This document shows positions 11,850 through 43,985 of a stretch of 64,000 nt of DNA, one piece after another. The notes beneath the pieces were generated by a model that did no database searches, was not told the DNA's origin, and saw only the letters and a program-made list of their open reading frames with translations. How positions within the stretch are numbered: position 1 is the stretch's first letter; the number at the start of each line of letters is the position of its first letter. A program made the translations under genes and the position numbers. The stretch is from Prorocentrum cordatum (taxonomy: Eukaryota; Sar; Dinophyceae; Prorocentrales; Prorocentraceae): NCBI GenBank assembly GCA_963575745.1, contig CAUYUJ010007247.1, forward strand, positions 176,001 through 240,000, in the 5' to 3' direction.

Positions 11850-11867
11850 AGGGTTGTTGACGGGGGT

Positions 11868-11998
11868 TTAGTTGTTTGTCCTAAACGGTTGGACCCCGCC
11901 CTCCCCAGTCGGCTTGGGTTTCTCCTCTCCCTGCTCCTGCCTCTGCTTGCCCTTCCCTTTTCCTCTCTCCCGCTCAAGCCTTCGGGGCTCAAAGCCCT
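11868..11998 (+). repeat. Split direct repeat A1 (left terminus of element A)
   Basis: 131 bases beginning ttagttgtttgtcctaaacg, repeated at 27,093-27,223 with one mismatch (a/g at 11,976 versus 27,201 by eye). It contains a pyrimidine-rich stretch and ends in a short stem (agcc-ttcggg-gctc). Homology stops right after, and before its first base the sequence is unrelated to the A2 context apart from a short G-rich tail, marking the element boundary. Confidence 0.85.
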
Positions 11999-12051
11999 GG
12001 AGCCGACCTCAGGAGGTCTGGGCGCCCGCGGCGCCCGGAAGCGCGCGTGCC

Positions 12052-15000
12052 ATGGCTGCCCGGCGCCCGGCGCTGGCAGGCGCGGCCCGCGGGCTGGCCG
12101 CGCTGGTCACCAGCGCAGCCGCCTGCGACTGGCGCGGGCCCCTCAGCTCCGCTGTCGCCCGCGCCAGTTGGGGCCACCCGGCTGCGGCCCAGGAGGCCCC
12201 GTTCGGGTACACCGTGCCGTACTACGACGACTCCGAGTACGGCATGGAGATCGGCGAGCACGAGGAGGAGGGTGGGGATGCAGGCAGCCCCCAGGCGCCG
12301 CCCGACAGTGGGCCGCCGGGAGCGCCGCCCCCGCCCCCAGCCCAGGCCGCCGGAGGAGTCGACAATGGCAGCGACCCCACCAAGGACCCGGGCAGCGAGG
12401 AGTCTTGGGTGGGCGGCTGGGGTGTCTGGGCGCTGGGATTGAAGCCACTACGTGAGGGCACCTGGGCCTGGCGCCTGAGTGGCATGGGCGGGGTCGCCTA
12501 CGAGAAGCTTGGCAGCCTTGGGAGCGCCTTCTCCACCCATGCTGAGACAGGCTGGCTGACCAAGGATGGTGGATGGTTCTTCTATGCTCTCGAGAAGCTG
12601 GGCCTGACGGTTTTCGGAGCCGCTTGGCCTGCCGTGGCATGGACGTTCATCTTCTTGGCTTTCCTGGCGGTGCTGGCTTTCCTCACTCACATCTGTCGTA
12701 CCCTACTGGCCCCCTGCGCAGCCGCCCTCTGGCTGATCGGTCTACTGGCGCGGTGCACCAAGTGCCGCCGGCGAGAGCCTGGCGATGCAGCTGCCGAAAG
12801 GTACCTGCCGCCGGCTCCGCCTGCCCTTACCCAGATCAATTGGATGGGGCCAGAGACCGGACCAGCCACGACCACGGAGTACTACAGCAAGAAGGTGAAG
12901 GGTCGTGGGACTGGGAGGCGACCTAACGACGTGCTGATCAAGATCGACGACCACGTGGCCCGGTTGAAGATCGACCTTTCGGAGCCCAAGCGGATCGACC
13001 GGAAGGGCCTCTGGATAGACTACCTGGGCGTGAAGGGGGCCAGCTCACGCGCACTCCGTCAGAAGCTGGAGTCGCTCGAAGGCCGTTCCATTCACCTGTG
13101 CCGCAACCTGGTTTGTAGAGATCAGCCTGGAGAAGTTTATTGTAAAGAATACGCTGCCTTGGATTCCGAGGCGATCGTGGACATCGGCTCCCACGCCAGA
13201 TTCACCTCTTGCCGGGGCGTCTTCCTGCTCTGGCGGACCGTCGCTGACCTGGGGAGGGGCATCTGGAAAGTTATCGTGTTCCTTTACTGCATCCTCTCCT
13301 GCGGTTGCTCCTTTTGCCGCCGGCGACGCCGCCGTCGCAAGACAGGCGCTGCGGAGCCAGGCGTTGCAGGGAGCATCGCAGAAGTTTTGGATCAGGAGTC
13401 AGAGTCGGAGGTGGAGGCCGAGGACAAGCCATGTGAAGCTGTTCGGGTGGGTATCGTTCTACGTGGCGGCGCCCGCCCCTTGGCACCCGACGGTTGCAGG
13501 GGCGCCGCGGGGGCCGAGCCGACCACCCTGCTCTTCGAAGACGGGCAAGCTTCAGACCTCCCGCCACCCAGTGACGGGCGGAATTCGTTCGCCCATCTCT
13601 GCGCACATCATGCCCAGGTTTACCGAGCATCTCGGTACCGTGATAAATGTTCGCAGGTGACTTGCTACCGCCAGGCAGTTGGCAACGCAGAGGGCGTACC
13701 ACTATGTCTTCTTCATCTGGGTGGAGAAGCAGGTCGAGCAGTGCAGGCAGCCGCAGCCGTCCAGGGCCGCGGATTCCTCTCGAGCCTGGGCTCGCGGCGT
13801 CGGACGGTTCGCAGTCGCAGCCCACGGGCGCGCGAGCAGGGCATCCCAGTCAACGCAGCTCCCCCCGCAGACGGGGCACGGGGACCAGAGGGCTATCGCG
13901 GACAAGCAGCCCCTGGGCAACACCGACGGGAGGCCTCAGCTTCGCCGCGAGGTCCACCTGTTGGTGTCAGGTTTGAAGCGCCGCCTTCTCCGAGGGTGCC
14001 CCTCCCGCGAGACGCCAGCCCTGCCCCCGACGAGGAGACCGAGCAAGGTGACCCTCTCGTACTGCGCGTGCGAGTCCACTGGGCCGCCGGCCCGCAGTGG
14101 GTTATCTTCTTGGGGAAGTCCCGCCCAGGGGGAGGGCCCACCGGAGATGGCAGCACGACTGTAGTAGACGTGGAGGAGCCGCACTGCAAAGACTACTCGG
14201 CGGAAGGCCAGGAGAACGTCTGCTTCACCCTCAAGACCGCGGGGATCGAGTACGCTCCCGTCGCCAGCGACCAGGGAAGGCTCCCCGCAGGCTACCTGGA
14301 GGAGCTCTTGTACCACCCACCACTCGGGGCCGAGGAAATGGGGATCGGGGTGCACGGCGTCGTCGTGAGCAGCACCATGTGGGAGAAGCTGCGTCCTTGG
14401 AACGGGGTCCCCGTCGGCGGGAAGACCAAGCGCATCGGCCGCCCTCAGTGGGCTCAGCTTCGGGCCCGCGGGGACTTGCTCGTGCACCGGCATCCAGCGG
14501 GCACCTCAGGTGATGCCCCCGGAGTACCGCAGCCCACCTCCGACGAGCTGGACACGCAACTCAAGAAGCATTGGGCGAGGCTTGATCGCAGCAGTTCCCC
14601 CAAGCCCCCATTCGGCGTCGGGTGGGGCCTGGGCGAGGAGGGTGATCTGGCCTCCTCAGTCCCTCGGCGCTCTTCCCGCAGTCCGGCCGGGAGGGACCAC
14701 GAAGAGGAGAACACCGGGGAGGCCATGCTGGGGCTGTACCTCGCCGCTCACGAAGAAGGATCGGACGACGCCTCGGCGCTACAGAGCGTGGCGGCAGGAT
14801 ACGACGAGGACATCACCGTGGTCTTGGGGCATCTCATCAAGTACACCAGGCGTCTCATGCGCAGCAGCGGGACCGAGGAGCGGGCCAAGTACCAGGCGCA
14901 CATCGACAGGTGGGAAAGAAAGTTGGAGCGGGTTCGAGCTGAAAAAGATGAAGGGGTGAACCCTCCCCTCGCTAGTGGCCTCTTGAAGCTAGACACCGAG

Positions 15001-17526
15001 CGCAAGCCCGACGCCAGCCAAGAGCCCAGCCAACCTGGAGTTCCCCCTGGGCTGGACGCCGCCACGAGCGCTCCGCCATTGCCGCCGCCGGCTACCCCGC
15101 CTGGCGTGCGCGGACCGGGAGCGACTCGCTTGTCCCCGCCAGGTTTGATGCCCGGCCTTGTACCGAATCTCGGGCAGATGTTCACTAACCGGAGCGCTTA
15201 CGGCCACGGGAGACTGGTTAAAACCCCGGGGCAACCCGATCGTAGGTACGCCGCAGGAGCCGGAGAAGGTGAACCCTCAGCCGCTTTCTCCACCTACGCG
15301 CAAGTCCTCCAGAACGGTCAAGAACAGCAGCACCTGGACAACATGCGGCTGCTGCAGGCGGTGGACAGCCTCCGCAGGTCCGGCGAGGAAGTTAAGGTAG
15401 CGCAGCGGGGCACCCTCGGCGCCATCGGACGCGCCGAGGAGCTGGACGTGTACCTGGCGCGGGGTTGCGACACCCTCGACGTAGAGGTCTGCGGTACCCT
15501 GACCGGGCGGGAGTTGTTCCATGGCCTCAAGCGCGCCTGCGAGCACGCGAAGCACGTGATGCAGGCGGTGAACTGGCCGACGACGGTGACGAACAGGATG
15601 GCGTACGGCATCGCCGCCTTCTGTTGGGGGGGGCGGGACCACAAGGATCTGGCCGAGTGGTCGATCTCCGTGGCCGATTTTCCCCTTTGCAAAGCAGAGG
15701 TGTTCGACGCCTACACCATGTCCACCACGTGCAAGCTCGAGCCGCGCCCCCGGCACCCGGTCGTCTTCTCTCAGTGGGTGAGGCAGGCCGAGAACGCCAT
15801 CACCGTCTTCGGGCTAGTCTACGGGCGGATGCACGAGCCCGAGCGACGCCGAGCCCTGGAGACCCTGCGCCTTGCCTACGAGGAGGACGACGTGGCCTTC
15901 CCAGCTGACTATGTGTACAGCCTTTGGGAAGAGCTTGCTGCAACCTGGTGCGAGCAGCTTCGGGAGAAGCGAAGGGAGGTGTGCCGCATCCTGGGGCTCA
16001 CCAACCCGCGCCGGGAGGACATCAAAACCATCGCCCTCGCCCCTACAGGGCCGTCTGGGAGTGCGTGGCTGACCTTTCCGAACGTGTACGACCTCGACGC
16101 ACCGGACGGGTACTACCAGGTGGTGTGCGTCCCTCGCCAGGCCCGGCGGCTGCAGAGGTTCCTCCATCAGAACCTCCACGCCGGCCCCTCGAGGACCCCC
16201 AAGGCTGGGAAGGCTGACGAACACGCCCCAGCAGATCAGGAGGCGCCCGCAGGAGCTGGCCCAGGCACAGGAAAGGCAGGGGCCGCCGTCAAGAAGGCTG
16301 CTGCCAAGAAGCGGCCCGCCGCCCGGGCGTGCCCAGCAGGGAAGGCGCTGACGTCCAGCGAGATCGGGCGCTCAGTCAAGCATGCCCCCCGGGACAAGAA
16401 CGGGAAGGTCATCTGCTGGGACGCCTGCACATGGGCTGGCTGCCCCAAGGCGGCAGGGACCTGCGCCCACTCCCACGAGGCCATCAAGGGGCTTGGCAGC
16501 TTGGACTGGACCGTGCAGGCGCAGCTCATCAGGCGCGGCGGCCTGAAGTCTGGCGCTAAGGTCGACCCCGCCTCGGTCGACGGGCGGGTAGCTCAGCTCA
16601 GGGCCCAGGCCAAGGCCGAGGCGGACAGCAAAAGGGCTGGGGGAGGCGCCGGAGAAGGTCCCGGGGCCTCTGCGGGAAGCAGCCGAGCGGGAGGCTCGCC
16701 GGCTGTTTGGTCCCCCCCAGCTGCCTTCGACGAGATTCAGACCACCGCCCTCGAGGAGGAGCTCAGGCAGGCCGTCCAGGGCCCCGAGGAGGACTGGTTG
16801 CTGGACGCCCACGCCAACGCGCCCGCGGTGGAGGGGACCAGTGAGACGACTCATCCAGCTGCTCTCGAAAGATGGAACATCATCGAGAAGGTCTTGGAGA
16901 GCGGGACCATCGCGACGCTGGGCGACATCAGCGACTACCTGCATTCACACGCCCTGGCCAGGCTCGCACGCGCCAGCTCAGAGGGCATCTCCCTGAGCTT
17001 GGAGGAGGTACTGCTAGAGGCGACTCGGGACGGGGGGCCAACCCTCGCCGAGGAAGCCGGTCGGGCCCTCGACAAGCTGGGATCAAAGGCGGGGAGGAGC
17101 AGCACCCAGGACCTCAGCATTGGAGGGGCCTCCTGGGACGAGGAGGCTGGGGTTGGCCGCGGGAAGCTCACGGTGCAAGACCAAGAATGGGACTATCTCG
17201 ACTTCCAGGACGAGCTTCAGCCCGACGAGGAGATGAGAACCCGGCTCGGCCTCAAGGAAGGCGACGCAGAGCTCAGGCAGTGTCTGGTGCTCCACATCGC
17301 GGCCGCCCTGCTCTGGGAAGATAAGGAGCCTGATGCGCCGGCCGTGAAGGCCCTGGCTGCTCAGCTCCGCCGCGAGTTGTGGGATGGAGCCACCACCGCC
17401 TCCGCCGCATTGGGGGACGCACCTCCCTTCGTCTCGCCACGTGAAGCCGAGCTCCGGATGCACTGCCACGATGTCCAGCACCCGCACCACGACAAGGACT
17501 TCAGGTGCATCTCGGTCTCCCCCTGA
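12052..17526 (+). CDS. ORF1 of element A: Gag-like protein with signal peptide, membrane segments and CCCH zinc finger
   Basis: The frame is open from 11,872, inside repeat A1, but the first good ATG is at 12,052 (gtgccATGg), giving 1,824 residues and an N-terminus like a signal peptide (MAARRPALAGAARGLAALV). A long hydrophobic segment lies at about residues 184-236 (WTFIFLAFLAVLAFLTHI and ALWLIGLLARC). A second lies near 402-420 (IWKVIVFLYCILSC) and is followed by a run of seven Arg/Lys. A Cys/His cluster is at about 514-553. A Pro/Ser-rich middle leads to a helical region at about 1,130-1,370, the likely capsid domain. A CCCH finger (C1459-x4-C1464-x6-C1471-x3-H1475) follows. The order capsid then zinc finger fits Gag; the membrane segments do not and are unusual. 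The stop (TGA at 17,524) overlaps ORF2, which lies in the -1 frame, so ORF1-ORF2 fusion by frameshifting is plausible. Confidence 0.75.
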   Translation: MAARRPALAGAARGLAALVTSAAACDWRGPLSSAVARASWGHPAAAQEAPFGYTVPYYDDSEYGMEIGEHEEEGGDAGSPQAPPDSGPPGAPPPPPAQAAGGVDNGSDPTKDPGSEESWVGGWGVWALGLKPLREGTWAWRLSGMGGVAYEKLGSLGSAFSTHAETGWLTKDGGWFFYALEKLGLTVFGAAWPAVAWTFIFLAFLAVLAFLTHICRTLLAPCAAALWLIGLLARCTKCRRREPGDAAAERYLPPAPPALTQINWMGPETGPATTTEYYSKKVKGRGTGRRPNDVLIKIDDHVARLKIDLSEPKRIDRKGLWIDYLGVKGASSRALRQKLESLEGRSIHLCRNLVCRDQPGEVYCKEYAALDSEAIVDIGSHARFTSCRGVFLLWRTVADLGRGIWKVIVFLYCILSCGCSFCRRRRRRRKTGAAEPGVAGSIAEVLDQESESEVEAEDKPCEAVRVGIVLRGGARPLAPDGCRGAAGAEPTTLLFEDGQASDLPPPSDGRNSFAHLCAHHAQVYRASRYRDKCSQVTCYRQAVGNAEGVPLCLLHLGGEAGRAVQAAAAVQGRGFLSSLGSRRRTVRSRSPRAREQGIPVNAAPPADGARGPEGYRGQAAPGQHRREASASPRGPPVGVRFEAPPSPRVPLPRDASPAPDEETEQGDPLVLRVRVHWAAGPQWVIFLGKSRPGGGPTGDGSTTVVDVEEPHCKDYSAEGQENVCFTLKTAGIEYAPVASDQGRLPAGYLEELLYHPPLGAEEMGIGVHGVVVSSTMWEKLRPWNGVPVGGKTKRIGRPQWAQLRARGDLLVHRHPAGTSGDAPGVPQPTSDELDTQLKKHWARLDRSSSPKPPFGVGWGLGEEGDLASSVPRRSSRSPAGRDHEEENTGEAMLGLYLAAHEEGSDDASALQSVAAGYDEDITVVLGHLIKYTRRLMRSSGTEERAKYQAHIDRWERKLERVRAEKDEGVNPPLASGLLKLDTERKPDASQEPSQPGVPPGLDAATSAPPLPPPATPPGVRGPGATRLSPPGLMPGLVPNLGQMFTNRSAYGHGRLVKTPGQPDRRYAAGAGEGEPSAAFSTYAQVLQNGQEQQHLDNMRLLQAVDSLRRSGEEVKVAQRGTLGAIGRAEELDVYLARGCDTLDVEVCGTLTGRELFHGLKRACEHAKHVMQAVNWPTTVTNRMAYGIAAFCWGGRDHKDLAEWSISVADFPLCKAEVFDAYTMSTTCKLEPRPRHPVVFSQWVRQAENAITVFGLVYGRMHEPERRRALETLRLAYEEDDVAFPADYVYSLWEELAATWCEQLREKRREVCRILGLTNPRREDIKTIALAPTGPSGSAWLTFPNVYDLDAPDGYYQVVCVPRQARRLQRFLHQNLHAGPSRTPKAGKADEHAPADQEAPAGAGPGTGKAGAAVKKAAAKKRPAARACPAGKALTSSEIGRSVKHAPRDKNGKVICWDACTWAGCPKAAGTCAHSHEAIKGLGSLDWTVQAQLIRRGGLKSGAKVDPASVDGRVAQLRAQAKAEADSKRAGGGAGEGPGASAGSSRAGGSPAVWSPPAAFDEIQTTALEEELRQAVQGPEEDWLLDAHANAPAVEGTSETTHPAALERWNIIEKVLESGTIATLGDISDYLHSHALARLARASSEGISLSLEEVLLEATRDGGPTLAEEAGRALDKLGSKAGRSSTQDLSIGGASWDEEAGVGRGKLTVQDQEWDYLDFQDELQPDEEMRTRLGLKEGDAELRQCLVLHIAAALLWEDKEPDAPAVKALAAQLRRELWDGATTASAALGDAPPFVSPREAELRMHCHDVQHPHHDKDFRCISVSP

Positions 17527-20500
17527 GTGCCCTCAACACGACCACCGTCCGGGTCTGGAGGATCAACCACTGGAACCAGCTCGAGATCGACTCCGTCCTG
17601 CCGACGCAGACCAGCGAGAAGGAAGTCCACGTCATGATCCACCGAGGGCATATGCGGGTGCTCAGGCCACCGGTCATCGGCGGCCAGAGTCCCAACAAGC
17701 GAGGCCGGGCATTTGGGGAGATCCTCAAGACCTGGACACTAGCTGGGAAACCCGTCCGCGAGCTACTCACAGTCGGCTGGGAGATGTACCTGGAGTCAGA
17801 GGAGGTCGCGGGGCCCGTGATCCCGAGCCGGCCCCCGCCCTGCATGCACTGCAAACGTATGCAGCAGGCTCAGCTCCCAACGCGTGAGGGCGCCGTCGGG
17901 AACCAGGAGCTCGAGGAGGAGGACTTCTCCGGTCTCGCACCACTCCTGCGCAGACCCGCCTTCGCGTGGGGCATCCGCACTCGCGAGATCTTCGCAGGGA
18001 CAGAAAACTGGACCAAGGCGATGCGAGAAGCTGGACTCCAGACGGCCCCGTCCGTCGAGTATTTCCAGGACCCCCTGGCCCAGACCGGGCCCCAGGAGGA
18101 GCACGACATCCTCGATCCCCAAGTGCGAGAGAGGCTCCTCCTCGACGCTGGGGCAGCGCCAGGCCCCGACGAGGCGAACGTCTACCAGTTGGCCCCCCCG
18201 TGCACGACCCACTCAGCTTGGTGCCTCAAGAACGGCGGGGCCCGCACGTTTGAGCATCCGGACGGCGACGGGACGGTCCAGGCGGAGATCGACAGCAACA
18301 TCATGACCGATTTCGCCGCCGACCTCTGCGAGCGCCTCGACGCCAACGATCGAGAGCGGATGCTCGAGAACACGGCCAGCGACGGACGCTACCCGAAGAT
18401 CTGGGACAGGGCCAGGATCAGGCAGCTGCAGAAGCGCACAGGAGCACGGATTATCTCCGTCGCCATGTGCGAGTGGGGGCTAGGGCCCCCAGAGGAGCCT
18501 GCGAAACGGCATCGCAAGCTGACGTTCTGGATGGTCTCGAAGGGCCTTTACCCTTGGGCGCTCTCTCTGGCGAGGCGCTGCACCAACCAGCACGAACGCG
18601 TCGCCCTGGAGGGGCCTCTCCCCTACGACCTGACCCAGGCCCAGATCGACCACTACAACTCCTCCAAGCTCTCGCTCAGCCAGTCCGAGCAGAAAGACAT
18701 CCTGAGCCTGACCAATCGATTAGCCCTGGCAGGCGTGCAGGCCCAGGGTCTCGCCGCAGATACCAAGACCCTGGAAACCCCACAGCTCGGACCCGAGCTG
18801 CTGCGCCCGCTGAACGACCTCGTCGGCAAGCTGGGGCCCGTGAACTTCCACTGGAGCCGGGTTGAACCACGCACCGGGAAGGCCTTCGAAGACCTCCCGG
18901 AGGGCGCCGTGGCCTTGTACTACGGACGCGATCGAGCCGACAATTTCGTGGCCAAGATCTCACACCGGTCGCCCCCGTGCCTGCACGGCGGCGGGCGCAT
19001 CCCCAGCGGAGCTCCCCCACTGGCCAAGGCACTGCGGGAGGAGTTGAGCACCCTCGGCTTCCAGGTCGGTCAGCGTGGACTACGTCGCACCCGCTACGCC
19101 GGCCAGTACCCGACGAGGCTGTGCGCTGCCTGGGCCGAGGTCGTCAAGGCTGCGGGAGCGGGGCCCCCCCCCGCGAAGCTCCTGAAGAAGCTTGAGCCCA
19201 TCGTCACGACGAGGGCCGGAGACAAGATGGCGGCGGGAGCCGGTGACGGGGTTCACCTGGCGGACCCCCCCCCTCCTTTTGGCTTCCAGGACGTGCCAGT
19301 CACGGAGAAGGAGGCGGAGGAGGACCATCCAGCGGAGCTCAGAGGATGGCAGTGCGCGAACAGAGGCAAGAAGAGAGGAGGGTGGAAACGCAACAAGGCG
19401 AGAAAGAGGGATCCCGACCGAGGAGCGCCACCACCGGGCCCTGGAGGAGATGGCGGAGACGACGAACCTGGGGGAGACGAAGGAGAAGGAGAGGAGGAAG
19501 AGGAAGAGAAGGAGCCGCCCAGGAGGGTCAAGAAGTCCAGGCAAGCCGAGCAGCAAGCCGATGAGCCAGTCAAGGTGCTTCTTCCACAGCGTGGGGACCG
19601 ATGGATACCAATCCCGGGGGCCCCCATGTACGCGCACGAGCTCCAGAGCGTCCTCATGACCTGCAGGTGGCTGCGCGACGACGTCCTCAGCCCCGAGGAG
19701 CTTCGCCTGTTCGTCTACACCGACGAGGGGGACGCCGCAGGAGCCGAGGGACCTCCCTTAGAAGACGACGATCGTGTCGAACCCGGGGAACGCCTTATCC
19801 TGTGGATCGGGAAAGAAGACATCGGGAATTGGGCAGCCTGGGCGCCGCGCTGGATCAAGAGGGCCGCGGACGAGGAGCGTGAGGGGGCGCCGTGGCACCG
19901 CAGCGAGGCCACCCCCGCGTCCCACCGCAGTGTCGCGCTGAGGATCGCCGACCGCACCAGCTCCCAGGGCTTCGGCAGCCCCGAGCTTGGCGCTGTCTGG
20001 AACAGGCGGGCCCCCCCACCGCACTCAGGAGGGAGGCGCTTCCAGCAGGCTGCCGCCCAAGCCCTCCAGAGACAAAGCCGCGAGGCGCCCGCCGGAGGGT
20101 CCAGCAGCGGCGGCAGCTCAGCCGACAGCATCAAGCTAGAGAGCATAAGGAGGAAGCTCGAAGCCGCCAAAGCCGCCGAGGTAGGTGTCCTGGAGGAGGA
20201 GGAGAAGCGTATCAAGGAACTGCAGATACAGCTGGCAGAAGCTAAGGAGCGCCGCCGGGCCCGTCGCGCGAGGGATGCCGGCAAGCGCGAGGCAGAGCAA
20301 GCGCAAGCCGGGCATCCCCGCCGGGCCAGCTCAGAACCCCCCAGCGGGCAGGGCGCGGCCACCCCTCTCGATCCAGCCTGGGAGGACGAGACCCCGTTGC
20401 CCTCGGCCATCCTAGATGGGGAGAACAAGTGCCACGAAGCGGAGTGCATCTTGAACAACCTGCTCGGAGTTCCAGCTGACGATCCCACAGGACCTGATCG

Positions 20501-23084
20501 GAGGAGGAAAGCGCGGGAGCTCCTGATCGAGGGCATCAGCTCCATGTTCGAGGACCTACCGCGGAGCTGGACCGGCACCCCCTACGAGGAGCAAGGCGAG
20601 ATCGCGAGCGAGTACGTTGACATCCTCGAGAAGCTGACCCGCAAGATGGTGAAAGCAGGGGAGCTGGACGACACCCCCGCAAAGAAGCGCCAGAGAATCG
20701 TGTATGAGAAGGCGGAGGAGGAACCCACGAGCGACGACGCGGACTCCGCCGAGAGCTCGGAAGACGCGGTGGTGGAGAAGCCGTACGCGAGGACCGAGGA
20801 GGGAATAGACCCCCCCCTCCCAGAGGATCCAGATCCCCTGAGCCTCTGGCCCGGGCAAGCGGAGGCGGCCAGGCGGAGCAGGGAGGAAACTTTCCAGAGC
20901 TCTCCTGGGGCCAGCGGCAGCGGAGGCCCCGCCCCCGCCGCAGGCGCAGAGCCACCGCCGAGTGCACCTCCACCGCCCGAGGTACTGGAAACCCCCTCAG
21001 ACCCAGCCCAGCATCGGAGGAGCAGACCCCCCGCCACGATCCCCCAGAAGGCCGCGCCAACGAGGAGAAGCCGCTCGGCCATGACAGTCGTGGAAGCAGC
21101 CAGGCGTGCCGCAGGCAGGTCGACGACCTCCAGCGGAGACCCCCCTACTGGGGGAGCAGACGCCGGCAGCGCAGGGACGTCCGGAGAGAAGCTCACACTC
21201 AGGCCCAAGCCGAGATCACTGGGGGCCCAGCTGCGCGCCACCTCCAAGGGAGAGCCATCGCAGCCCAGACCCCGCCAAGATGATCCAGCCAGGCCGCTCG
21301 TGCCCCCAGATCACGCAGTCAGGCCCCTGGTGAGGCCTCCAGGGTGGCGCCCGCTTCTCCCTGGGCAAGTCTGCCGGCCGCCAGGGATGCCGCCGATGAT
21401 GCCGCCCCCTTGGCCGCCCCCTCCGCGGGGAGGCCGCTGTGGGGGACCCCCTTTGGGGGAGGCGCCGGCGGCACCGAGCAGTGGGAGGGCACAGGAGGAG
21501 GCGCGTGCCTACGTCAAGTGGTGCGCGGACCACCCCACCTTCCAGCCCGAGAAGGTGCCAGAGGTCGTGAAGCGGGGCAACTCACTCCTCCGCCTCGCCG
21601 GCAGCATCGAGAGGGCTGCCGAGTTGCTGAAGCACGCGCGGGGGGAGGTCCATGGGAACCCGCTGGGCGGCGTACTCCAAGAAGACGTGCAGAAGTCCTT
21701 GGACCCGCACCACGCCGCCTACCTCCGGGCCATGGCCACCGGGGGGGCACCCGTGCGACGCACGGAGGAGCGGACGCGCACACAGGCCAAGTCGCACTCC
21801 TCGGCGGTGGACCACGCGCTGGAGATGTTCGAGAAGGCCTGGAAGGACAGCCGCTACGGCGTTGTCCTCTGGGCCTCGGACGAGGTCGAGGACGTGCTCG
21901 CCGCCTCGGCGCTGGTCGAGTCGCCCAGCGGGAGGGCCCCCAAGATGTTGCCGGATCGGACCATCTCGAAAGAGGGCCGGCCGATCCACGACATGCGGGC
22001 GGCCAACGCCTTCTCCCCGAAGGAGCAGCACCCGCCAGCGAAGCAGCCCCTCCACAGGGGGCTTGCGAGGCTCAGCCTCTGGTGGGAGGCGAGGCACCCG
22101 GGCGTCCAGCAGGTGGTGGCGAAGCGCGACGTGGCCAGGGCCTTCAAGTGGCACCACCTGGAGCCAGCTGCCGTGCCAGAGTTCGGGACGACGCTCCCGG
22201 GCAAGGAGGTCGGAGTGCCAGGGCGAGTTATCCTGATCCACGGCGTGCTGGTCTTCGGCTGGGCCGGCAGCCCGGGCGAGTACATGGCGTTCGCCTGGGC
22301 GGCCAAGAGCGAGCACGAGAGGAGGAAGCCGCCGGCGCCCAGGATCAACGATACCGTCAGGTACGCCTCCAAGTGGCTCATGGACGACGGGGTCGTCCTC
22401 GAGCCGCTGGTGGGCCTCCGACCCTGGCTCTCGGCCGAGGAGCTCGACGGGGCCATGAAGCGAGTCTGGGGCCCGGACGCAGTTAACGAGGAGAAACTGG
22501 ACGTCGAGGGGGAACTCGCGGCAGAGCAGTCGATCTGGGGCCTCCACATGAACTTCGACACGAAGGTGGTTAGGCTCCCAGAACCCAAATGCATCAAAGC
22601 TCAGTGCCTGCTCGCCCTCCCGGAGCTCAGAGGATCCAGGCGGGTCCCGCTGAAGGTCGCCCAAGAGCTGCGAGGCTGTGCCCAGTTCTGGGCGTCAGCA
22701 CAGCCGGCCCTCCGCCCCGAGCTCCCCGCCCTGGACCGGCTCCTCAGCAGCGGGGCGAGCTGGGCAGAACCGAAGGGTACGCCTGAGGAAGTCGAGCTCG
22801 CCTGGGAGGAGTGGGACGCGTCGGTGGGGTTTCTGAGGATGCTCTTCGACGTCCCTGAGGCCTGGAGCACGACCTTCCAGGCCAGCTTCACGGCTTCACG
22901 CAGGCCCTGTCGGTGCGCGAACGCCTCGCCTTGCCGGGAACAGCACGTACCACACGGTGGACGGGCGGAGATGCTACAACCTCCTCGATCGGTGCCATCG
23001 ACTGGGGGAGCGCAACTGCAGGGGATGCCGCGCCGACGCCGGAGTACATGGCCACGGACGCCGGACCACTGCTCGAGGCCCTGA
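17505..23084 (+). CDS. ORF2 of element A: C5-methyltransferase-like domain plus reverse transcriptase
   Basis: An open frame of 1,859 codons overlapping ORF1 by 22 bases. Its first codon is GTG, so it is probably made as a -1 frameshift extension of ORF1. Residues about 157-350 resemble the catalytic half of a C5 cytosine methyltransferase: TREIFAGTENWTKAMREAGL (motif I), HDILDP, YQLAPPCTTHSAWC (motif IV, with the catalytic-type PPC), ENTASDG (motif VI) and KRHRKLTFW (like motif VIII). A charged, coiled-coil-rich middle follows. RT lies at about 1,490-1,790: DMRAANAF, KRDVARAFKWHHL (first Asp), LVFGWAGSPGEYMAF (motif B), and KWLMDDGVVLEP with the catalytic DD at residues 1,627-1,628, in place of the usual (Y/F)xDD. 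The thumb follows. RNase H is in the next frame (ORF3). RT identity is strong; methyltransferase activity is inferred from motifs only. Confidence 0.8.
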   Translation: MHLGLPLSALNTTTVRVWRINHWNQLEIDSVLPTQTSEKEVHVMIHRGHMRVLRPPVIGGQSPNKRGRAFGEILKTWTLAGKPVRELLTVGWEMYLESEEVAGPVIPSRPPPCMHCKRMQQAQLPTREGAVGNQELEEEDFSGLAPLLRRPAFAWGIRTREIFAGTENWTKAMREAGLQTAPSVEYFQDPLAQTGPQEEHDILDPQVRERLLLDAGAAPGPDEANVYQLAPPCTTHSAWCLKNGGARTFEHPDGDGTVQAEIDSNIMTDFAADLCERLDANDRERMLENTASDGRYPKIWDRARIRQLQKRTGARIISVAMCEWGLGPPEEPAKRHRKLTFWMVSKGLYPWALSLARRCTNQHERVALEGPLPYDLTQAQIDHYNSSKLSLSQSEQKDILSLTNRLALAGVQAQGLAADTKTLETPQLGPELLRPLNDLVGKLGPVNFHWSRVEPRTGKAFEDLPEGAVALYYGRDRADNFVAKISHRSPPCLHGGGRIPSGAPPLAKALREELSTLGFQVGQRGLRRTRYAGQYPTRLCAAWAEVVKAAGAGPPPAKLLKKLEPIVTTRAGDKMAAGAGDGVHLADPPPPFGFQDVPVTEKEAEEDHPAELRGWQCANRGKKRGGWKRNKARKRDPDRGAPPPGPGGDGGDDEPGGDEGEGEEEEEEKEPPRRVKKSRQAEQQADEPVKVLLPQRGDRWIPIPGAPMYAHELQSVLMTCRWLRDDVLSPEELRLFVYTDEGDAAGAEGPPLEDDDRVEPGERLILWIGKEDIGNWAAWAPRWIKRAADEEREGAPWHRSEATPASHRSVALRIADRTSSQGFGSPELGAVWNRRAPPPHSGGRRFQQAAAQALQRQSREAPAGGSSSGGSSADSIKLESIRRKLEAAKAAEVGVLEEEEKRIKELQIQLAEAKERRRARRARDAGKREAEQAQAGHPRRASSEPPSGQGAATPLDPAWEDETPLPSAILDGENKCHEAECILNNLLGVPADDPTGPDRRRKARELLIEGISSMFEDLPRSWTGTPYEEQGEIASEYVDILEKLTRKMVKAGELDDTPAKKRQRIVYEKAEEEPTSDDADSAESSEDAVVEKPYARTEEGIDPPLPEDPDPLSLWPGQAEAARRSREETFQSSPGASGSGGPAPAAGAEPPPSAPPPPEVLETPSDPAQHRRSRPPATIPQKAAPTRRSRSAMTVVEAARRAAGRSTTSSGDPPTGGADAGSAGTSGEKLTLRPKPRSLGAQLRATSKGEPSQPRPRQDDPARPLVPPDHAVRPLVRPPGWRPLLPGQVCRPPGMPPMMPPPWPPPPRGGRCGGPPLGEAPAAPSSGRAQEEARAYVKWCADHPTFQPEKVPEVVKRGNSLLRLAGSIERAAELLKHARGEVHGNPLGGVLQEDVQKSLDPHHAAYLRAMATGGAPVRRTEERTRTQAKSHSSAVDHALEMFEKAWKDSRYGVVLWASDEVEDVLAASALVESPSGRAPKMLPDRTISKEGRPIHDMRAANAFSPKEQHPPAKQPLHRGLARLSLWWEARHPGVQQVVAKRDVARAFKWHHLEPAAVPEFGTTLPGKEVGVPGRVILIHGVLVFGWAGSPGEYMAFAWAAKSEHERRKPPAPRINDTVRYASKWLMDDGVVLEPLVGLRPWLSAEELDGAMKRVWGPDAVNEEKLDVEGELAAEQSIWGLHMNFDTKVVRLPEPKCIKAQCLLALPELRGSRRVPLKVAQELRGCAQFWASAQPALRPELPALDRLLSSGASWAEPKGTPEEVELAWEEWDASVGFLRMLFDVPEAWSTTFQASFTASRRPCRCANASPCREQHVPHGGRAEMLQPPRSVPSTGGAQLQGMPRRRRSTWPRTPDHCSRP

Positions 23085-25969
23085 GTCACGCGGTCAGAGG
23101 CGAGAGTGGCGAGGAGGGCTGGATCATAGCAGTGGTCGAGCTGCTGGCGGTGGTCGCGTTGGCCACGAAGCAGGGCTCGAAGTGGGAAGGAGAGTTGGTG
23201 TTTTACGTCACGGACAACCAGAATGTGAAGGCCTGGCTCACCAAGAGAAGCCCCAAGAACGCCCTGGCCCGCCGCCTGATTCGTCTGGTGGAAAGGATCG
23301 AAGCCATGCACGGATGCCGCATCGTCTCGTTCTTCGTGAGGACCTACCATAATGAAGTGGCCGACTGGCTTACCCGCGAAGAGGTCAAGAAGGTTCACGA
23401 CACGCTGGCCACCTCAGGGTGGAAGCGCCTAGAGCCTCCCGCAGCCTGGGGCCAGATACTGGAGGACGCCAAGGAGCGCCTTCTCAGACTCCCTGGGGAA
23501 ACGGGCCCCGTGGCCGAGGCTGCCCTTCGACACCGAGCGCTTCAGCGAGGACATGGGCTGCCGAGAGCTCTCCCGCTCCGCGGGAAGCTGGGTCGAGAAG
23601 TGGGGAGTCTCATCAACCCGTACACGAAGGCCTTCAAGCGCCTCGGGGGATCGGAGCCCGAGGAGAACCAGAAGGTGGGATGGCTCATGGCGTCGCTGTC
23701 CCTAGACCCCAAGGGCCGAGAGATGGAGGCTTTCCTCGTCGCAGCAACTCAGGAGAGCCCTGAAGTGGTGGTCGTGGACGCCCCGACCGGGGTAGACACA
23801 GCCAGGTTCGAGAAGGCACTCAAGCAGCTGGGCTACATGGTCTCGAAGTTCGAGGTGGTCTGCACGCACCACGGGGACGCCACGACGCGGACCAGGCGGG
23901 TGCTCGTGGGCGGACGTCGGAAAGCGGGAGTGGGCCTGGCGTGCATTAACATGCCGCCGGCCTGCTCCCGAGCTGCCAGCGTCAAGCCTCTCCTGGACAA
24001 GGGAAAGGACCACCTGTGGCTCGACCAACAAGGCGAAGTGTCATGGGACCCCCGCATCCAGTCCACCAGCGACCCCCTCCTCCTCAAGCCGGTCGGGCAC
24101 CTCAAGAAGGATGGAGCGAAGCACCTGATCTACAGCGAGGAGGGGCCGGTGGGCACCATCCGCTGGCCTGGGGCGGAGCTCCAAGGACCCGGGGCGACGC
24201 TCCTCCGTGTCACCGGAGGGGGCGGAGGCACGGTCCGCGCCCTGACGCCCCAAGAGGTTTGGCGAGTGCAGGGAGGGACCAACGACGAGTGGACCCACCT
24301 GCGAGCCCAGGGCTTCACCGAGGACGAACTCCTGAAGGGCGCAGCCAGGGCGCTCCCGCCGAGGACCGCGGAGGCAGTGCTGACCGCGGTGACAGAGGCG
24401 CTCGACAGCACCAGCACGCAGCGGGCCGGGGTGCGCCATGATCCAGAGGAGCAAGCTGCGTGGGAGGCCACCAAGCGCTGGTTCCGCGCCTGGGCCCAGG
24501 CACCGGATCAGCCCGCCCTGGCGCTGGCAGCAGAGGACGAGGTGAGGGCCGGAGGAGCGCTCACCGACGAGATGCACAAGAACCGCCGGCGCGCCCAGGC
24601 AGTCCGCTTCAAGATGATCGACGAGGACACGCTCATCGGACCCCGCGAGGCCCCGGCCGCCGAGAAGGTCAAGCTAGACAAAAGTGTGACACGCTCGAAA
24701 AGCCCTCGCAAAAAGAGCCCTCGGCGTGCCAAAGAGATGCCAGCAACCAACCTGGTGAGGCCGCAAGCGCTGGGCGTAGCTCGGAAGACCAACTGCCCCG
24801 GGAAGGAGCTCGCCCCCGCCGGCCGCGCTGAGCCTGGCGGAGCCAACTACGCCGGCTGGTTCGCGCAGCAGAAGATGGAGGCCATGCTGCAGAAACTCAG
24901 TGAAGGCACAAGGGCAGGTTACGAGGGAGGATGGCGGCTCTGGGTGGCCGTGCGCCAGGCGCAAGGGCTCAGCCCTTGGCTCCCAGGACGTGATCGCGAG
25001 GAGCGCCTGGCCGACGAGGAGGCGCTCATCAACTTCGCCGTCCTCCTAGCGCGGGTCGTCGGGAGGACCGAGGGGACCATCAAGCAGAAGCTCTTCGCGG
25101 TGCGCTACGCCCACCTGGTGGCCGGCTACTCGGACCCCCTGCTCCACAGAGGCCGCCTCTGGAGCACGCTGGCAGGGCTGAAACGCTGGCAGGGGCCCGA
25201 GACCAAGCGGAAGAAGCCCGTCACGCCAGCCATGCTCGAATGGCTCCGCGGCTTTCTCCAGCAGGAGGCCAAGCTCCCCGAGGAGGATGCAGTGGTCATC
25301 TGGGCGGCCATCGTGACAGCGTTTTTCTTCCTCCTGAGGGCCTCAGAGTACCTCCTCCAGGACGGGCGCTCGTGGTCCTTCGAGCGCGTGCTGCACGGGG
25401 AGGACGTGGAGCCCAAGAAGGAGGGGAAGCGTGTGGCCAGCTTCCAGGACGCCGACGAGATGGTGATCTACATCAAGGGCAGCAAGACGGACCAGCTCAA
25501 TGTCGGGACGGTGAGGAACCACTACCGCGCCGGCACATCGCTCTGCCCGATCGCGGCGATGGAGCGGCTCCAGGCTCACCATCCTCAGCGGATAAAGGGC
25601 ACCGAGGAACGGCTGCCCCTTTTCCGCTGGGCGTCAGGTACACCGATCCGCAGGGCAGAGGTGCAGCACTTCCTGACGGTCGCGGGGCTGGCCGCCGGCC
25701 TCTCCAGGGAAGAGATCGGCAGCCATTCCCTGAGGATCGGCGGGGCAACTGCAATGTACCACGTGACCGAGGACCTCTCCCGAGTGCGCCGATTCGGGCG
25801 CTGGCAGTCGGACGCGTTCCACGGCTACCTGTGGGAGTCGCACGAGCCGATGAAGGGCATCTCCGGCAAGATGGCCAGGGACAACTCCTCGTTGACCAAC
25901 CCGGCGAAGGACAGCGCCCCCAGCAGAGCTGCCGCCGGCGCCGAGAGCGCCAGGCGTGAGAGCCCATGA
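22913..25969 (+). CDS. ORF3 of element A: RNase H, late-motif methyltransferase-like module, tyrosine recombinase
   Basis: 1,018 codons, again -1 relative to the ORF before, with a GTG as first codon; sequence homologous to element B continues upstream only in the ORF2 frame, so a shift at about 22,890-22,913 joins them. RNase H: GGDATTSSIGAIDWG (about residue 18), ELLAVVAL, FYVTDNQNVKAW (about 97) and YHNEVADWLTREE (about 145). Next, PEVVVVDAP, FEKALKQLGY, VVCTHHGDATTRTRRVLVGG (about 285-335), RALTPQEVWRVQG (about 441) and ARALPPRTAEAVLTAV (about 479) match the order of C5-methyltransferase motifs VI, VIII, IX and X, but with no PPC. A basic linker leads to the recombinase: FFLLRASEYL (about 805), HSLRIGGATA (H-x-x-R, about 937), RRFGRWQSDAFHGYLWES with the candidate nucleophile Tyr (about 972). 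The recombinase would insert circular cDNA. Confidence 0.8.
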   Translation: MRERLALPGTARTTRWTGGDATTSSIGAIDWGSATAGDAAPTPEYMATDAGPLLEALSHAVRGESGEEGWIIAVVELLAVVALATKQGSKWEGELVFYVTDNQNVKAWLTKRSPKNALARRLIRLVERIEAMHGCRIVSFFVRTYHNEVADWLTREEVKKVHDTLATSGWKRLEPPAAWGQILEDAKERLLRLPGETGPVAEAALRHRALQRGHGLPRALPLRGKLGREVGSLINPYTKAFKRLGGSEPEENQKVGWLMASLSLDPKGREMEAFLVAATQESPEVVVVDAPTGVDTARFEKALKQLGYMVSKFEVVCTHHGDATTRTRRVLVGGRRKAGVGLACINMPPACSRAASVKPLLDKGKDHLWLDQQGEVSWDPRIQSTSDPLLLKPVGHLKKDGAKHLIYSEEGPVGTIRWPGAELQGPGATLLRVTGGGGGTVRALTPQEVWRVQGGTNDEWTHLRAQGFTEDELLKGAARALPPRTAEAVLTAVTEALDSTSTQRAGVRHDPEEQAAWEATKRWFRAWAQAPDQPALALAAEDEVRAGGALTDEMHKNRRRAQAVRFKMIDEDTLIGPREAPAAEKVKLDKSVTRSKSPRKKSPRRAKEMPATNLVRPQALGVARKTNCPGKELAPAGRAEPGGANYAGWFAQQKMEAMLQKLSEGTRAGYEGGWRLWVAVRQAQGLSPWLPGRDREERLADEEALINFAVLLARVVGRTEGTIKQKLFAVRYAHLVAGYSDPLLHRGRLWSTLAGLKRWQGPETKRKKPVTPAMLEWLRGFLQQEAKLPEEDAVVIWAAIVTAFFFLLRASEYLLQDGRSWSFERVLHGEDVEPKKEGKRVASFQDADEMVIYIKGSKTDQLNVGTVRNHYRAGTSLCPIAAMERLQAHHPQRIKGTEERLPLFRWASGTPIRRAEVQHFLTVAGLAAGLSREEIGSHSLRIGGATAMYHVTEDLSRVRRFGRWQSDAFHGYLWESHEPMKGISGKMARDNSSLTNPAKDSAPSRAAAGAESARRESP

Positions 25970-26864
25970 GAGGCCGCAGCGGGCGCCGCCGGTGCTTACG
26001 CACCTGGCGTGCGCCCAACCCAAGCCGCCGGCTTCACGCCGTGCGTGCTTGGGTGCAGCCACCAGCCACCTGCCCCGCCGGCGAGTAGCCGCGCGCTCGC
26101 AGAGTACACCCGCCCGTGCCTTCAGCACTGGCTAATACCTCGCGGCAAAAGCACGCGTGCAGGCCCGTCCGTCAGGGCCCCACTAGTGCCTGGGATACTG
26201 TGGGTCCCCTTGCAGCCCTGGACGAGGACCACGCTGGAACCAGCCTGGCACGCCGGCTCTCCATGCCAAGCCTGGGCGCGCCGGGCATACTGACGCCAGC
26301 TGTGCTACAGTGGCTGGCAGTCTGACGGCACGGGTGGCCGCAGCGCTCGAATTCATGCGCAGGCACGGGCCCGCGCCCCAGCGCCGGCCCGGGGAACCCC
26401 CTCTGTCAGGGGCCGGACCCTGCCCGCCCCGTGCACTTTGGGCACCTGCGGAGGCGGGGAGCCGGGAGATCTGGAGGCCGCGGCGCAGACGGGGATGCCA
26501 AGTGCCGGCCCGTGCCAAGCGCCAGCGACGACACCCTCGGGCCTCAGCCCGAGGTCGGGCTCCGCCGGCAATCAAGGTACCGGCGCGAGCCCAAGGCCTA
26601 GCCTCACGGAGGACAGCCGCGCACGCCGGCATCAGTTGCCTGGCGGCAGTCGGCAGACAGAGGGCCAGTCGGGCCCCGCACGCACGCCGGCGCACACGCC
26701 AGGCGATGCGTGACTCAGTGCCTAGACGGTGCCGGCAACACAACGCCTGGCACCCAGTTTTGGCGACGCCCATCAGGGCGCCCACACAGCGCGCCGGCGC
26801 GTAGAACCCCCCAGGCGGCCAGTGTGCGGGGGCACTGGCAGCAGCGCCAGTATTATAGAACAAA
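25970..26864 (+). other. 3' untranslated region of element A
   Basis: About 900 bases between the ORF3 stop and repeat B1. GC-rich, with no ORF that I would support. No similarity was seen to the membrane extension that follows the recombinase in element B. Confidence 0.5.
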
Positions 26865-27092
26865 GGCGGCGAGGCCCGCTTCGCGTGGCGGAAGGAGGGA
26901 CCCGCCTGGCGTGTCATCGCCGGCGGGAGGAGCGTGCGGCCAGCGCAGCAGCAAAATGGGGGGGGCTGCGCCGCTGCCGCCATCATCGCCATCGTCTCCT
27001 GAGGGCTCGCTTCAACCGCTTCGCGGCTGGCACGTCCCGCGGCCTTAAAGCAGGCCGCGCTTTCGCTAGCGCCGCGCTGTGGGGGCGGGGTC
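26865..27092 (+). repeat. Split direct repeat B1 of element A
   Basis: 228 bases from ggcggcgaggcccgcttcgc to gggggcggggtc, repeated as B2 at 27,291-27,519 with a few substitutions and one extra G in a G run (8 versus 9). Its last base abuts the first base of A2 exactly. Confidence 0.85.
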
Positions 27093-27223
27093 TTAGTTGT
27101 TTGTCCTAAACGGTTGGACCCCGCCCTCCCCAGTCGGCTTGGGTTTCTCCTCTCCCTGCTCCTGCCTCTGCTTGCCCTTCCCTTTTCCTCTCTCCCGCTC
27201 GAGCCTTCGGGGCTCAAAGCCCT
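27093..27223 (+). repeat. Split direct repeat A2 of element A
   Basis: 131 bases identical to A1 except for one base. Sits immediately after B1 and is separated from B2 by 67 unique bases. An open frame seen through it is a copy of the A1 segment and not a gene. Confidence 0.85.
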
Positions 27224-27290
27224 CCCAGGGCCCAAAGGGGCCCTCTTTTGCCCGCCCACCCTGGGCTTTGCCTCGGTGTCCTACGGCACC

Positions 27291-27519
27291 GGCGGCGAGG
27301 CCCGCTTCGCGTGGCGGAAGGAGGGGCCCGCCTGGCGTGTCATCGCCGGCGGGAGGAGCGCGCGGCCAGCGCAGCAGCAAAATGGGGGGGGGCTGCACCG
27401 CTGCCGCCATCATCGTCATCGTCTCCTGAGGGCTCGCTTCAACCGCTTCGCGGCTGGCACGTCCCGCGGCCTTAAAGCAGGCCGCGCTTTCGCTAGCGCC
27501 GCACTGTGGGGGCGGGGTC
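27291..27519 (+). repeat. Split direct repeat B2 (right terminus of element A)
   Basis: 229 bases, copy of B1. After ggggtc at 27,519 the match to the B1/A2 context ends (cgcgcag replaces ttagttg), which places the right end of the element. The left flank ends acgggggt, so a short G-rich core (ggggt) is shared by both ends. Confidence 0.8.
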
Positions 27520-31576: not shown

Positions 31577-31862
31577 TTAGGGCTATAGGGCTATTGGGCT
31601 ATAGGCAAATAGAGCTATATGGCTATAGAGCTATAGGCCTATAGGGTTATATGGCTATATATGGCTATAAGGCTATAGAGCTATAGAGCTATAGGGCTAT
31701 ATAGTGCTATAGGGCTATACGGCTATACAACTATAAGGCTATAGGGCTGTAAAACTATAAGGCCATAGGCCTGTACGGCTATAGGGCTGTTGGGCTATAG
31801 GGCTACAGGGCTATTGAACTATGGGGCTGTAGGGCTATAAGATTATAAGGCTTTGAGGCTAT
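31577..31862. repeat. Degenerate GGCTATA minisatellite
   Basis: About 285 bases made of variants of an 8-10 base unit (ggctatag, gctataggg, agctatag), strongly AT-rich compared with its GC-rich surroundings. No ORF. Confidence 0.8.
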
Positions 31863-34124: not shown

Positions 34125-35429
34125 TCAGTCACGATGCGGCCTCGGTTCTCCTCCTCGGGGCCATTCTGGTGGCCCGCGGTGCCCTGATGGGGCCACCTCC
34201 CGCGTCACCTCATTGGCCCGGCGGAAGCCCTGGGTCTCGTGCACGTACCTCATGCCGTTGTAATGCGCCGGGCCCATCACTCCCGCGTCGCAGTACGTCT
34301 TCTGCGGCTGCTCGGGGAGCTTGGGCGCCTTGGGCGTCGGCTGCACCACGGCCCGCTGTGCTCCATGCCCCGGCACCTTCCCGCTTTTCTTGGCCATCCA
34401 GCAGCAGCAGCAGCAAAGCACCCCGATGCCCGCTGTGAACAGCACTGCGATCACGGCCGCCACCTTCAGCGCCGTCTCCACCGGGAAGACGATCGCCACC
34501 GTGCTCATCTGCGGCTCCCAGCGAAGTATGACCCCCTGGGTCTCGTCGTTGACCGCCGCCATCTCCTGGCTCTGTGTCTCCCCCGCTGCCGTTGCGAGCG
34601 CCGTTGCCATCGGCGCTGCGCACGGCAAGCTCGCCCGGGGGTTGCGGGCCCTGCGGTTGCTGCTGCGCCCGCTGGCTGCCCGCCCACTCCTTCGCTGCCA
34701 CCTGTGCCGCCAAACAGCTCCCAGCAGCGCCGCTGCTAGCAGCGTCCCCGCTGCCACTGCCCACGTCCTCAAGCTGACCGGGAGCACGAAGATCAGTAGG
34801 TTCTGGCTCTCCGCCGGGTCGACCTTGATCACGTAGCCGCCTGCCCCGCCGGCCGTGGAGGCGAGCGTCGTCGCGGCCAGCGCAGCCCCGGGCCATCGCG
34901 GGGTCGGGCCCTTGCCCGCGCGGCACTCGCTCTCGGCCGCGTGGGCCGGCGGCGCCGTGAGCTCGGACGTGTCTGTCGCCATGTCGGTCGAGATGCCGCG
35001 CATGGGCTCGTGGCTCTCCCACAGGTACCCATGGAAGCTGTCGGAGGCCCAGCGCCCGAAGCGCTTGACGCGCTGCAGGTCGTCCACGGCATGGTGCACC
35101 GCCGTTGCGCCTCCTATGCGGAGGCTGCGTGAGCCGATCTCCTCCTTCCTCAGCCCGGCGGCCAGCCCTGCTACTGTCAAGTAGTGATGCACCTCCTCGC
35201 GGCGGATGGGTGCACCGCTCGCCCAGCGGAAGAGTGGGAGCTCCTCCTCGCTGCCTCGCAGCCTCTGCGGGTAGAGCTGCTCCAGCTGGCGGATAGCGGC
35301 CACCGGGCACAGCGGCGTGCCCGTCTCGTACTGGTTCCTCACACACCCCACATTATATTGATCCGTCTTCGAAGAGGTGATGTGGCGCACCACCTCCACT
35401 GCGTGCGCAGGGCTGGTTGTTGCTGTCAC
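34125..35429 (-). pseudogene. Tyrosine recombinase of element B with a membrane-type C-terminal extension
   Basis: Continues the 878-codon frame after a +1 change near 35,420. Recombinase residues visible: SSKTDQYNVGCVRNQYETG, then GSRSLRIGGATA where element A has GSHSLRIGG (the H of H-x-x-R is Arg here), and RFGRWASDSFHGYLWES with the Tyr kept. The first catalytic Arg (LRASEYL) is in the upstream frame. After the recombinase the frame continues about 270 codons with two hydrophobic stretches (AVAAGTLLAAALLGAVW; AAVIAVLFTAGIGVLCCCCC) and a basic tail. Element A has no such extension. Loss of the His and the frameshift suggest an inactive enzyme. Confidence 0.65.
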
Positions 35430-37989: not shown

Positions 37990-38170
37990 TCGTCCCAGGC
38001 GAGGGCAACCTCCCCCGCGCTCCCCTTGGACTCCGCCCAGGCTGCTCCGAGCCCGCCGCCAAGGAGGCGGTCGATGACCGGCAGCTCAGGCTTGATTGCC
38101 GGCTGTGTGGCCACCCAGAACTGCGCGGGGCCCCTCAGCTCCCGGGCGACCTTGATGGGGACCCGGCGGT
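37836..38170 (-). pseudogene. RT thumb fragment of element B
   Basis: The minus strand reads HRRVPIKVARELRGPAQFW then PAIKPELPVIDRLLGGGLG and LAWDEWDQTLELLRA, aligning with the end of the element A RT (RRVPLKVAQELRGCAQFW; EELAWEEWD-like segment). This is the 5'-most part kept; upstream of about 38,170 the sequence is unrelated. Confidence 0.6.
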
Positions 38171-43632: not shown

Positions 43633-43985
43633 CTGCGGGTCGAATGCAGGACGAGGGAGGATGATGAGACGAAGCAGGATATGGAACAGAAGCACCAGGC
43701 AACCAAGCGAAACAGGAAGGGAAGGGGGAGGTGTTGCCGTGCTGTCGGCTGATTCCTACTTATCATCATCCTCGTCCTCATCCTTCCCCCCCTCCTCATC
43801 CTTCTCCTCCAGCTCCTCCTCCTCATCCGCATCCTCATCCTCCTCCTCCTCCTCCGTCTCCCCTTCCTCCTCCTCCTCCTCCTCATCCTTTTCCTCCCCC
43901 TCCTCATCCTCCTCCTCTTTCTCCTCCCCCTCTGGCTCCTGCTCCTCATCCCCCTCATTACTCCTTCTCCTCATCCTCCATCCAC

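Follow-up and report, generated by a model that had tools for sequence, protein, structure and literature searches.

Organization of the locus

The window, a stretch of 64,000 nucleotides from the dinoflagellate Prorocentrum cordatum (contig CAUYUJ010007247.1, positions 176,001 to 240,000), harbours element A (11861-27519), which is a DIRS-type tyrosine-recombinase retrotransposon, and a 5'-truncated relative, element B, on the minus strand (Table 1). The family behind element A is abundant, and the window holds one of its copies. The split direct repeats, seen in this window copy only, are ordered A1-coding-B1-A2-B2. ORF1 of the window copy has no Pfam match. It contains two hydrophobic, transmembrane-like stretches (12637-12756, residues 256-295, and 13219-13314, residues 450-481), which is unusual in a gag-like protein, and Cys/His-rich stretches at 13600-13716 and 16414-16476, the latter zinc-knuckle-like (CWDACTWAGCPKAAGTCAHSH). 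Apart from the elements, the window has about 32 copies of the 8-bp unit TAGGGCTA (31578-31839), perhaps an interstitial telomere-like repeat, and a 114-bp tandem repeat of 6.1 copies (42792-43486) that overlaps a 322-aa open frame (42784-43752). Rfam gave no match, and NCBIfam only weak and implausible ones.

Table 1. Features of elements A and B, in positions of the window.
Feature	Position	Strand	Remarks
Split direct repeat A1, 5' end of element A	11861-11998	+	138 bp; 97.8% identity to 27086-27223
ORF1, window copy: gag-like polyprotein part (by position)	11872-17526	+	continuous with the rest in L009
ORF2, window copy: module 1, linker, RT	17505-23084	+	
Module 1, catalytic-looking C5-methyltransferase core: motif I, PPC, ENT, KRHRK	17961-18620	+	
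REIFAGTENW (ORF2, motif I)	17982-18011	+	in frame
QLAPPCTTH (ORF2, motif IV)	18186-18212	+	in frame
MLENTAS (ORF2, motif VI)	18360-18380	+	in frame
KRHRKLTFW (ORF2)	18504-18530	+	in frame
Insert at the usual place of a target-recognition domain, between module 1 core and motif-X-like end	18621-19091	+	~140-160 aa
Motif-X-like end of module 1, YAGQYPTRLCAAWAEVVKAA	19095-19154	+	ORF2 residues 531-550
Reverse transcriptase region (KRDVARAFKWH, LMDDG, IWGLHMNFD)	21702-22904	+	64% identity to family B
ORF3, window copy: RNase H, module 2, linker, tyrosine recombinase	22913-25969	+	
RNase H (YMATDA, VVELLA, VTDNQNV, RTYHNEVADWL)	22958-23449	+	57% identity to family B
Module 2: GSLINPY (I), LSLDPKG (IV), VDAP (VI), GDATTRTRR (VIII), LTPQEVWRVQG (IX), LPPRTAEAV (X)	23585-24412	+	
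VVVVDAP (ORF3)	23765-23785	+	in frame
GDATTRTRRVLVGGR (ORF3, module 2)	23873-23917	+	in frame
RALTPQEVWRVQGG (ORF3, module 2)	24236-24277	+	in frame
ARALPPRTAEAV (ORF3, module 2)	from 24344	+	in frame
Tyrosine recombinase (LLRASEYLL, IGSHSLRIGGATAM, FGRWQSDAFHGYLWE)	24830-25837	+	PF00589 E 0.00088, under curated cut-off
Split direct repeat B1	26865-27092	+	97.4% identity to 27291-27519 over 229 columns
Split direct repeat A2	27086-27223	+	97.8% identity to A1
Split direct repeat B2, 3' end of element A	27291-27519	+	97.4% identity to B1
Element B: end of RT region, RNase H, module 2, recombinase	34914-38168	-	5'-truncated relative
Module 2 of element B (GSPLGT, CTLSLDPKG, VVVDAP, GDMTARARS, LSPEEVWIVQG, SLPPETARAV)	36436-37242	-	

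Sister copies were sought in the 4.13-Gb assembly of 21,875 contigs; only the best candidates were scored, and the copy counts of families A and B are lower bounds. With ORF3 as query, the best 45 of 4,207 candidates were 94-100% identical; 40 of these 45 are free of stops within the match, and two belong to frames 4,692 and 4,696 aa long. One sister copy, represented by the adjacent stretches L009 and L010, reads as a single frame that spans the gag-like part, the recombinase and all that lies between. A native layout of three ORFs was rejected, this copy being open over 4,696 aa, and because it reads as one frame, the division into ORF1, ORF2 and ORF3 in the window copy is a product of decay. 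The element encodes a polyprotein of about 4,700-5,000 aa that comprises a gag-like part, module 1, RT, RNase H, module 2 and a tyrosine recombinase.

The RT (LMDDG) and RNase H (TDN, HNEVADWL) of element A are presumably what their motifs and the identity of 64% and 57%, respectively, between families A and B indicate; neither has a Pfam or PDB profile match. For the RTs of Symbiodinium DIRS elements, poor alignment with Pfam is described in the available text of PMC5890265. The recombinase contains the stretches GSHSLRIGG and WQSDAFHGY and is 66% identical to that of B over the recombinase part.

With element B of the window as query, the best 55 of 3,849 candidates were scored for family B; 46 are stop-free, and seven have frames that measure 4,950 to 6,309 aa. 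One copy with a 4,950-aa frame, L047, runs from module 1 through RT, RNase H and module 2 to the recombinase, which is the order of element A. Compared with A, its RT block is 54% identical and its module 1 block 47%. The latter (L047:3426-5207, about 600 residues) comprises module 1, the preceding stretch and the following insert, and this insert, kept within the block, may be a separate domain. The frame at the recombinase end of element B (a 434-aa ORF, 34125-35429, minus strand) extends further, with two hydrophobic stretches and a cysteine run.

Module 1, before the reverse transcriptase

Module 1 looks like a C5-cytosine methyltransferase domain that has the SAM-site and catalytic motifs and is without a recognisable target-recognition domain. 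The motifs follow the order of this family: I, IV (PPC) and VI (ENT in A, ESS in B). Motif I is altered to FAGTE in the window copy and reads FAGTG or FAGAG in all four sister A copies that were read. The first-pass annotation had proposed that two C5-methyltransferase-like modules bracket the RT and RNase H of element A, with the catalytic motifs in the first; both statements stand, the modules being recognised by profile as well as by fold, and all motif strings it quoted lie in frame at their places.

The predicted structure of module 1 (pLDDT 67, pTM 0.70) gave 36 Foldseek matches in the PDB at E<=0.001, every one a C5 methyltransferase (TM 0.30-0.42). In the BFVD, 16 matches reached the same threshold, nine named cytosine methyltransferase, one DNA methylase and six nameless. 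In the VIA list FtsJ (8.2) comes near the best C5 row (9.1), and this list alone would not settle the fold. Among sequence profiles, phrog_363 matches module 1 with E 0.0028 in the sister copy L009 and 0.15 in the family B copy L047, and the compact homologue P0012 with E 0.038. Neither phrog_363 nor phrog_116 matched the window piece 17505-19300 (598 aa), L047:3450-5207, P0006, P0009 or P0004. Pfam, including PF00145, matched none of three module 1 sequences at E up to 10, a PDB profile search gave three matches at chance level (E 0.99-2), and hhalign against M.HhaI alone gave no signal for module 1 or module 2. The C5-methyltransferase likeness of both modules, module 2 included (see below), exceeds chance; phrog_116 and phrog_363 are the two best PHROG matches of M.HhaI itself.

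A protein search with module 1 gave eight matches at E<=0.001 among the best 7,997 candidates. Scans of IMG/VR with P0002, A2, A7 and P0006 and of genome contigs with P0012 gave no relatives, and tblastn against phages with module 1, module 2 and P0012 no matches. Within the family of module 1, the outside proteins P0006 and P0009 form a branch that has VVC for PPC at motif IV, and this branch could show whether the family has catalytic activity. Across this family, departures from the C5 consensus comprise ESS for ENT in B, the lack of QxRxR, the VVC of P0006 and P0009 and FAGWA in P0006.

These departures bear on whether the modules act on DNA at all. Both could be catalytically dead scaffolds, or module 1 could serve RNA methylation, as might be suspected from the variation of the motif VI Asn, the motif IV Pro and motif I across the family; moreover, the SymbioLINE-Dnmt that was tested failed to methylate DNA in yeast, its suggested target being RNA (available text of PMC5890265). 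However, the four A copies read outside the window have the motif IV Cys, the motif VI Glu and the motif I glycines, and we regard this explanation as quite improbable.

Module 1 as a mere N-terminal half was rejected, for it has a motif-X-like end of its own, which aligns with QQYAPALCAAWGLVIKAA of P0006 and a like stretch of P0009. It could be imagined that module 1, with motifs I to X in order and the insert at the target-recognition position, is self-sufficient, the insert being its own target-recognition domain, and that module 2, a remnant C5 domain, now plays only a DNA-binding or structural role in a complex of RNase H and recombinase. The insert, however, is missing from the compact homologues P0006, P0009 and P0012, and nothing links it with DNA binding. 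Module 2 does sit between RNase H and recombinase, where DIRS elements keep a methyltransferase domain; it is mostly its C-terminal, DNA-facing end that is kept, and its constraint does not exceed that of the linker that follows. Taken together, such an arrangement seems somewhat unlikely.

Module 2, after RNase H

Module 2 looks like a dead enzyme, a C5-methyltransferase pseudoenzyme with a C5 fold in which the SAM-site and nucleophile motifs are lost and the DNA-facing end (motif VIII, target-recognition region, IX and X) is retained. There are residues at the positions of motifs I and IV (23594-23650 and 23681-23716), altered yet conserved. The catalytic PC dipeptide and ENV are absent from module 2, with LSLDPKG and VDAP in their place; the annotation had likewise seen no PPC here.

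The stretch from motif VIII to X matches phrog_116 with E 3.7e-10 in A and 0.0081 in B. PF00145 stays below its cut-off, with E 0.15, and with E 0.18 for one of three members (profile columns 272-321 of 324), and has no row for the whole ORF3. Of the two lines along which the annotation thought its C5 reading could be followed, the PF00145 profile offers no match for module 1 and a sub-threshold one for module 2, and the prediction of single-module structures yields a C5-methyltransferase fold for both. The model of module 2 is of low confidence (pLDDT 47.9, pTM 0.42); it superposes on the Rossmann core of M.HhaI between residues 8 and 181, though it is about 50 residues short.

Module 2 as a mere C-terminal half was rejected because it still has residues where motifs I and IV would stand and, in this low-confidence model, a shortened Rossmann core. 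The annotation had written of a split or duplicated enzyme whose second module supplies the C-terminal half. The split in this wording lacks support, as the modules overlap, both having the stretch from motif VI to VIII, module 2 has a Rossmann core in its low-confidence model, and module 1 has its own motif-X-like segment; a better fit is a duplication of which one copy has become a pseudoenzyme. The two modules may stem from different C5 lineages.

A strict split of the M.AquI kind, with module 1 as catalytic large domain and module 2 as target-recognition domain with motifs IX-X, would account for the complementarity of the motifs that the two modules retain. C5 enzymes of two polypeptides exist in nature, and both overlapping and non-overlapping fragments of M.SssI complement each other (PMC3404938, in its available text). 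Yet the Rossmann core of module 2, whole though shortened, would be superfluous in a pure C-terminal half, its residues are conserved, and module 1 ends in a motif-X-like segment, which makes a strict split improbable.

The late module is also kept in element B, as the annotation had stated. A protein search with ORF3 residues 230-520 gave no match at E<=0.001 among the best 7,997 candidates, and one with the module 2 pair gave a single match, P0004, among the best 7,995. This outside protein, a fragment, keeps module 2 and is a third relative besides families A and B. In the genome of the window, the best 150 of 1,340 candidates are 48-55% identical to it, and it is therefore no close copy of A or B. 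A phmmer search with ORF3 against the PDB gave no match.

Selection and CpG signals

Between A and B, dN/dS, taken as the quotient of the computed dN and dS values, is 0.40 in module 2, 0.35 in the linker after it, 0.27 in RNase H and 0.19 in the recombinase part. Within A (eight copies, that of the window included) pN/pS is 0.12 in module 2, 0.12 in RNase H, 0.04 in the linker and 0.20 in the recombinase, and within B (30 copies, likewise) 0.21, 0.08, 0.24 and 0.13, respectively. For five A copies the values are 0.15 in module 1, 0.19 in the stretch after it, 0.16 in a low-complexity stretch and 0.30 in the RT. There is an excess of synonymous changes in both modules (module 1 in five A copies, module 2 in eight A and 30 B copies). 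Purifying selection thus acts on the frame as a whole, and this argues against module 2 being free debris. The constraint on module 2 does not exceed that on its linker and, between A and B, is weaker than that on RNase H and recombinase. The ratio by itself does not make the case for a function of module 2; what does so is that its altered motif residues are nearly invariant.

CpG depletion lends little support to cDNA methylation. The observed/expected ratio of CpG in element A is weakly lowered (0.851 versus 0.88-1.03 in four other measured stretches), and the excess of C-to-T changes at CG is weak as well (1.3% versus 0.7-1.0% in eight A copies, and 6.1% versus 4.5-5.3% in 30 B copies).

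A possible partnership of the two modules

Pairs of an active methyltransferase and a catalytically dead relative exist in DNMT3A-DNMT3L and METTL3-METTL14. From the presence, order and conservation of the two modules and the motifs that each has lost or kept, we infer a partnership and a role on cDNA. The best explanation, a serious possibility though short of a probable one, is that module 1 and the pseudoenzyme module 2 form a pair that methylates the element's own new cDNA or an integration intermediate. Module 2 would assist module 1 by regulating it or by holding the DNA, much as DNMT3L assists DNMT3A or as the subunits of two-part bacterial enzymes cooperate, and the pair would find its target in the element's cDNA or integration intermediate because both modules share a polyprotein with the RT. 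In a stricter form, which is on the doubtful side, the pair would be obligate: module 1, without a target-recognition domain, and module 2, as a DNA-facing pseudoenzyme, would methylate the new cDNA on its exit from the RT, ahead of its integration by the recombinase.

Several observations weigh against a pair. About 1,500 residues separate the modules, and both their contact and their activity are presumed. With its departures from the consensus, module 1 could be inactive or an RNA methyltransferase, and with an insert at the target-recognition place it may need no partner. Furthermore, the constraint on module 2 does not surpass that on the adjoining linker (0.40 versus 0.35 between A and B), the confidence of its model is low, hhalign with M.HhaI alone gave neither module a signal, and the CpG depletion and the C-to-T excess at CG are weak.

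If it exists, a pair with a catalytically dead member, kept in families A (eight copies) and B (30) and, for module 2, in P0004, would separate catalysis from targeting. To our knowledge, a mobile element that maintains its own pseudoenzyme partner would be a rare case. Why retroelements keep C5 methyltransferases is described as an open question in the available part of PMC5890265, and such a pair would make it testable with two domains in vitro.

Relation to known systems

The presence of C5 methyltransferases in dinoflagellate retrotransposons was already known, as the annotation had stated. SymbioDIRS-Dnmt3 of Symbiodinium, as described in the accessible text of PMC5890265, is like element A a dinoflagellate DIRS-type element with RT, RNase H, tyrosine recombinase and A-coding-B-A-B repeats; it has a C5 methyltransferase in the frame of the RT, and purifying selection on the DNMT domain is reported. 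This is a Dnmt3 domain whose key positions are conserved, and that text mentions no second module, whereas element A has two C5-like modules that flank RT and RNase H. The recombinase of SymbioDIRS-Dnmt3 is a separate ORF (same source), whereas that of A belongs to the one frame of L009/L010, and for this reason element A is not filed under SymbioDIRS-Dnmt3. Retrotransposon DNMTs are described as methylating CG de novo, and methylation of cDNA has been proposed for SymbioDIRS-Dnmt3 (PMC5890265, de Mendoza et al. 2018, in the text at hand).

SymbioLINE-Dnmt, whose enzymes are called "orphan" DNMTs in the accessible part of PMC12344493, resembles A as a lineage-specific C5-like enzyme on a dinoflagellate retroelement and is possibly kin to module 1. 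It differs in its LINE architecture with the DNMT ORF upstream of the RT ORF, and no second module is mentioned in the available text (PMC5890265). DIRS elements with a Dam-like domain, cited in the same text, are likewise recombinase retroelements that carry a methyltransferase domain, but one of adenine type, structurally unrelated to cytosine DNMTs.

In C5 enzymes, according to the available text of PMC3404938, the large domain carries most of the conserved motifs, whereas it is the small domain, with motif IX, that contacts DNA specifically; two-chain enzymes and fragments can work jointly, as for M.AquI, M.EcoHK31I and M.SssI. As in M.AquI and M.EcoHK31I, the conserved C5 motifs of element A are spread over two parts. 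In those enzymes, however, the two chains make up one motif set (same source), whereas both modules of A span the core, from motif I to the motif VIII position, and overlap, one core being altered.

Among the papers listed by literature searches, no title or beginning of an abstract names a retroelement with two methyltransferase modules or with a methyltransferase pseudoenzyme; supplementary figures could show a similar layout. The feature is real: a C5 methyltransferase in a dinoflagellate DIRS element is known, the paired layout is the new part, and the mechanism is interesting and unproven. DNMT3A-DNMT3L and METTL3-METTL14, parallels to the pair that we favour, differ in that they are encoded by separate host genes, and a mechanism shared with element A is a proposal only.
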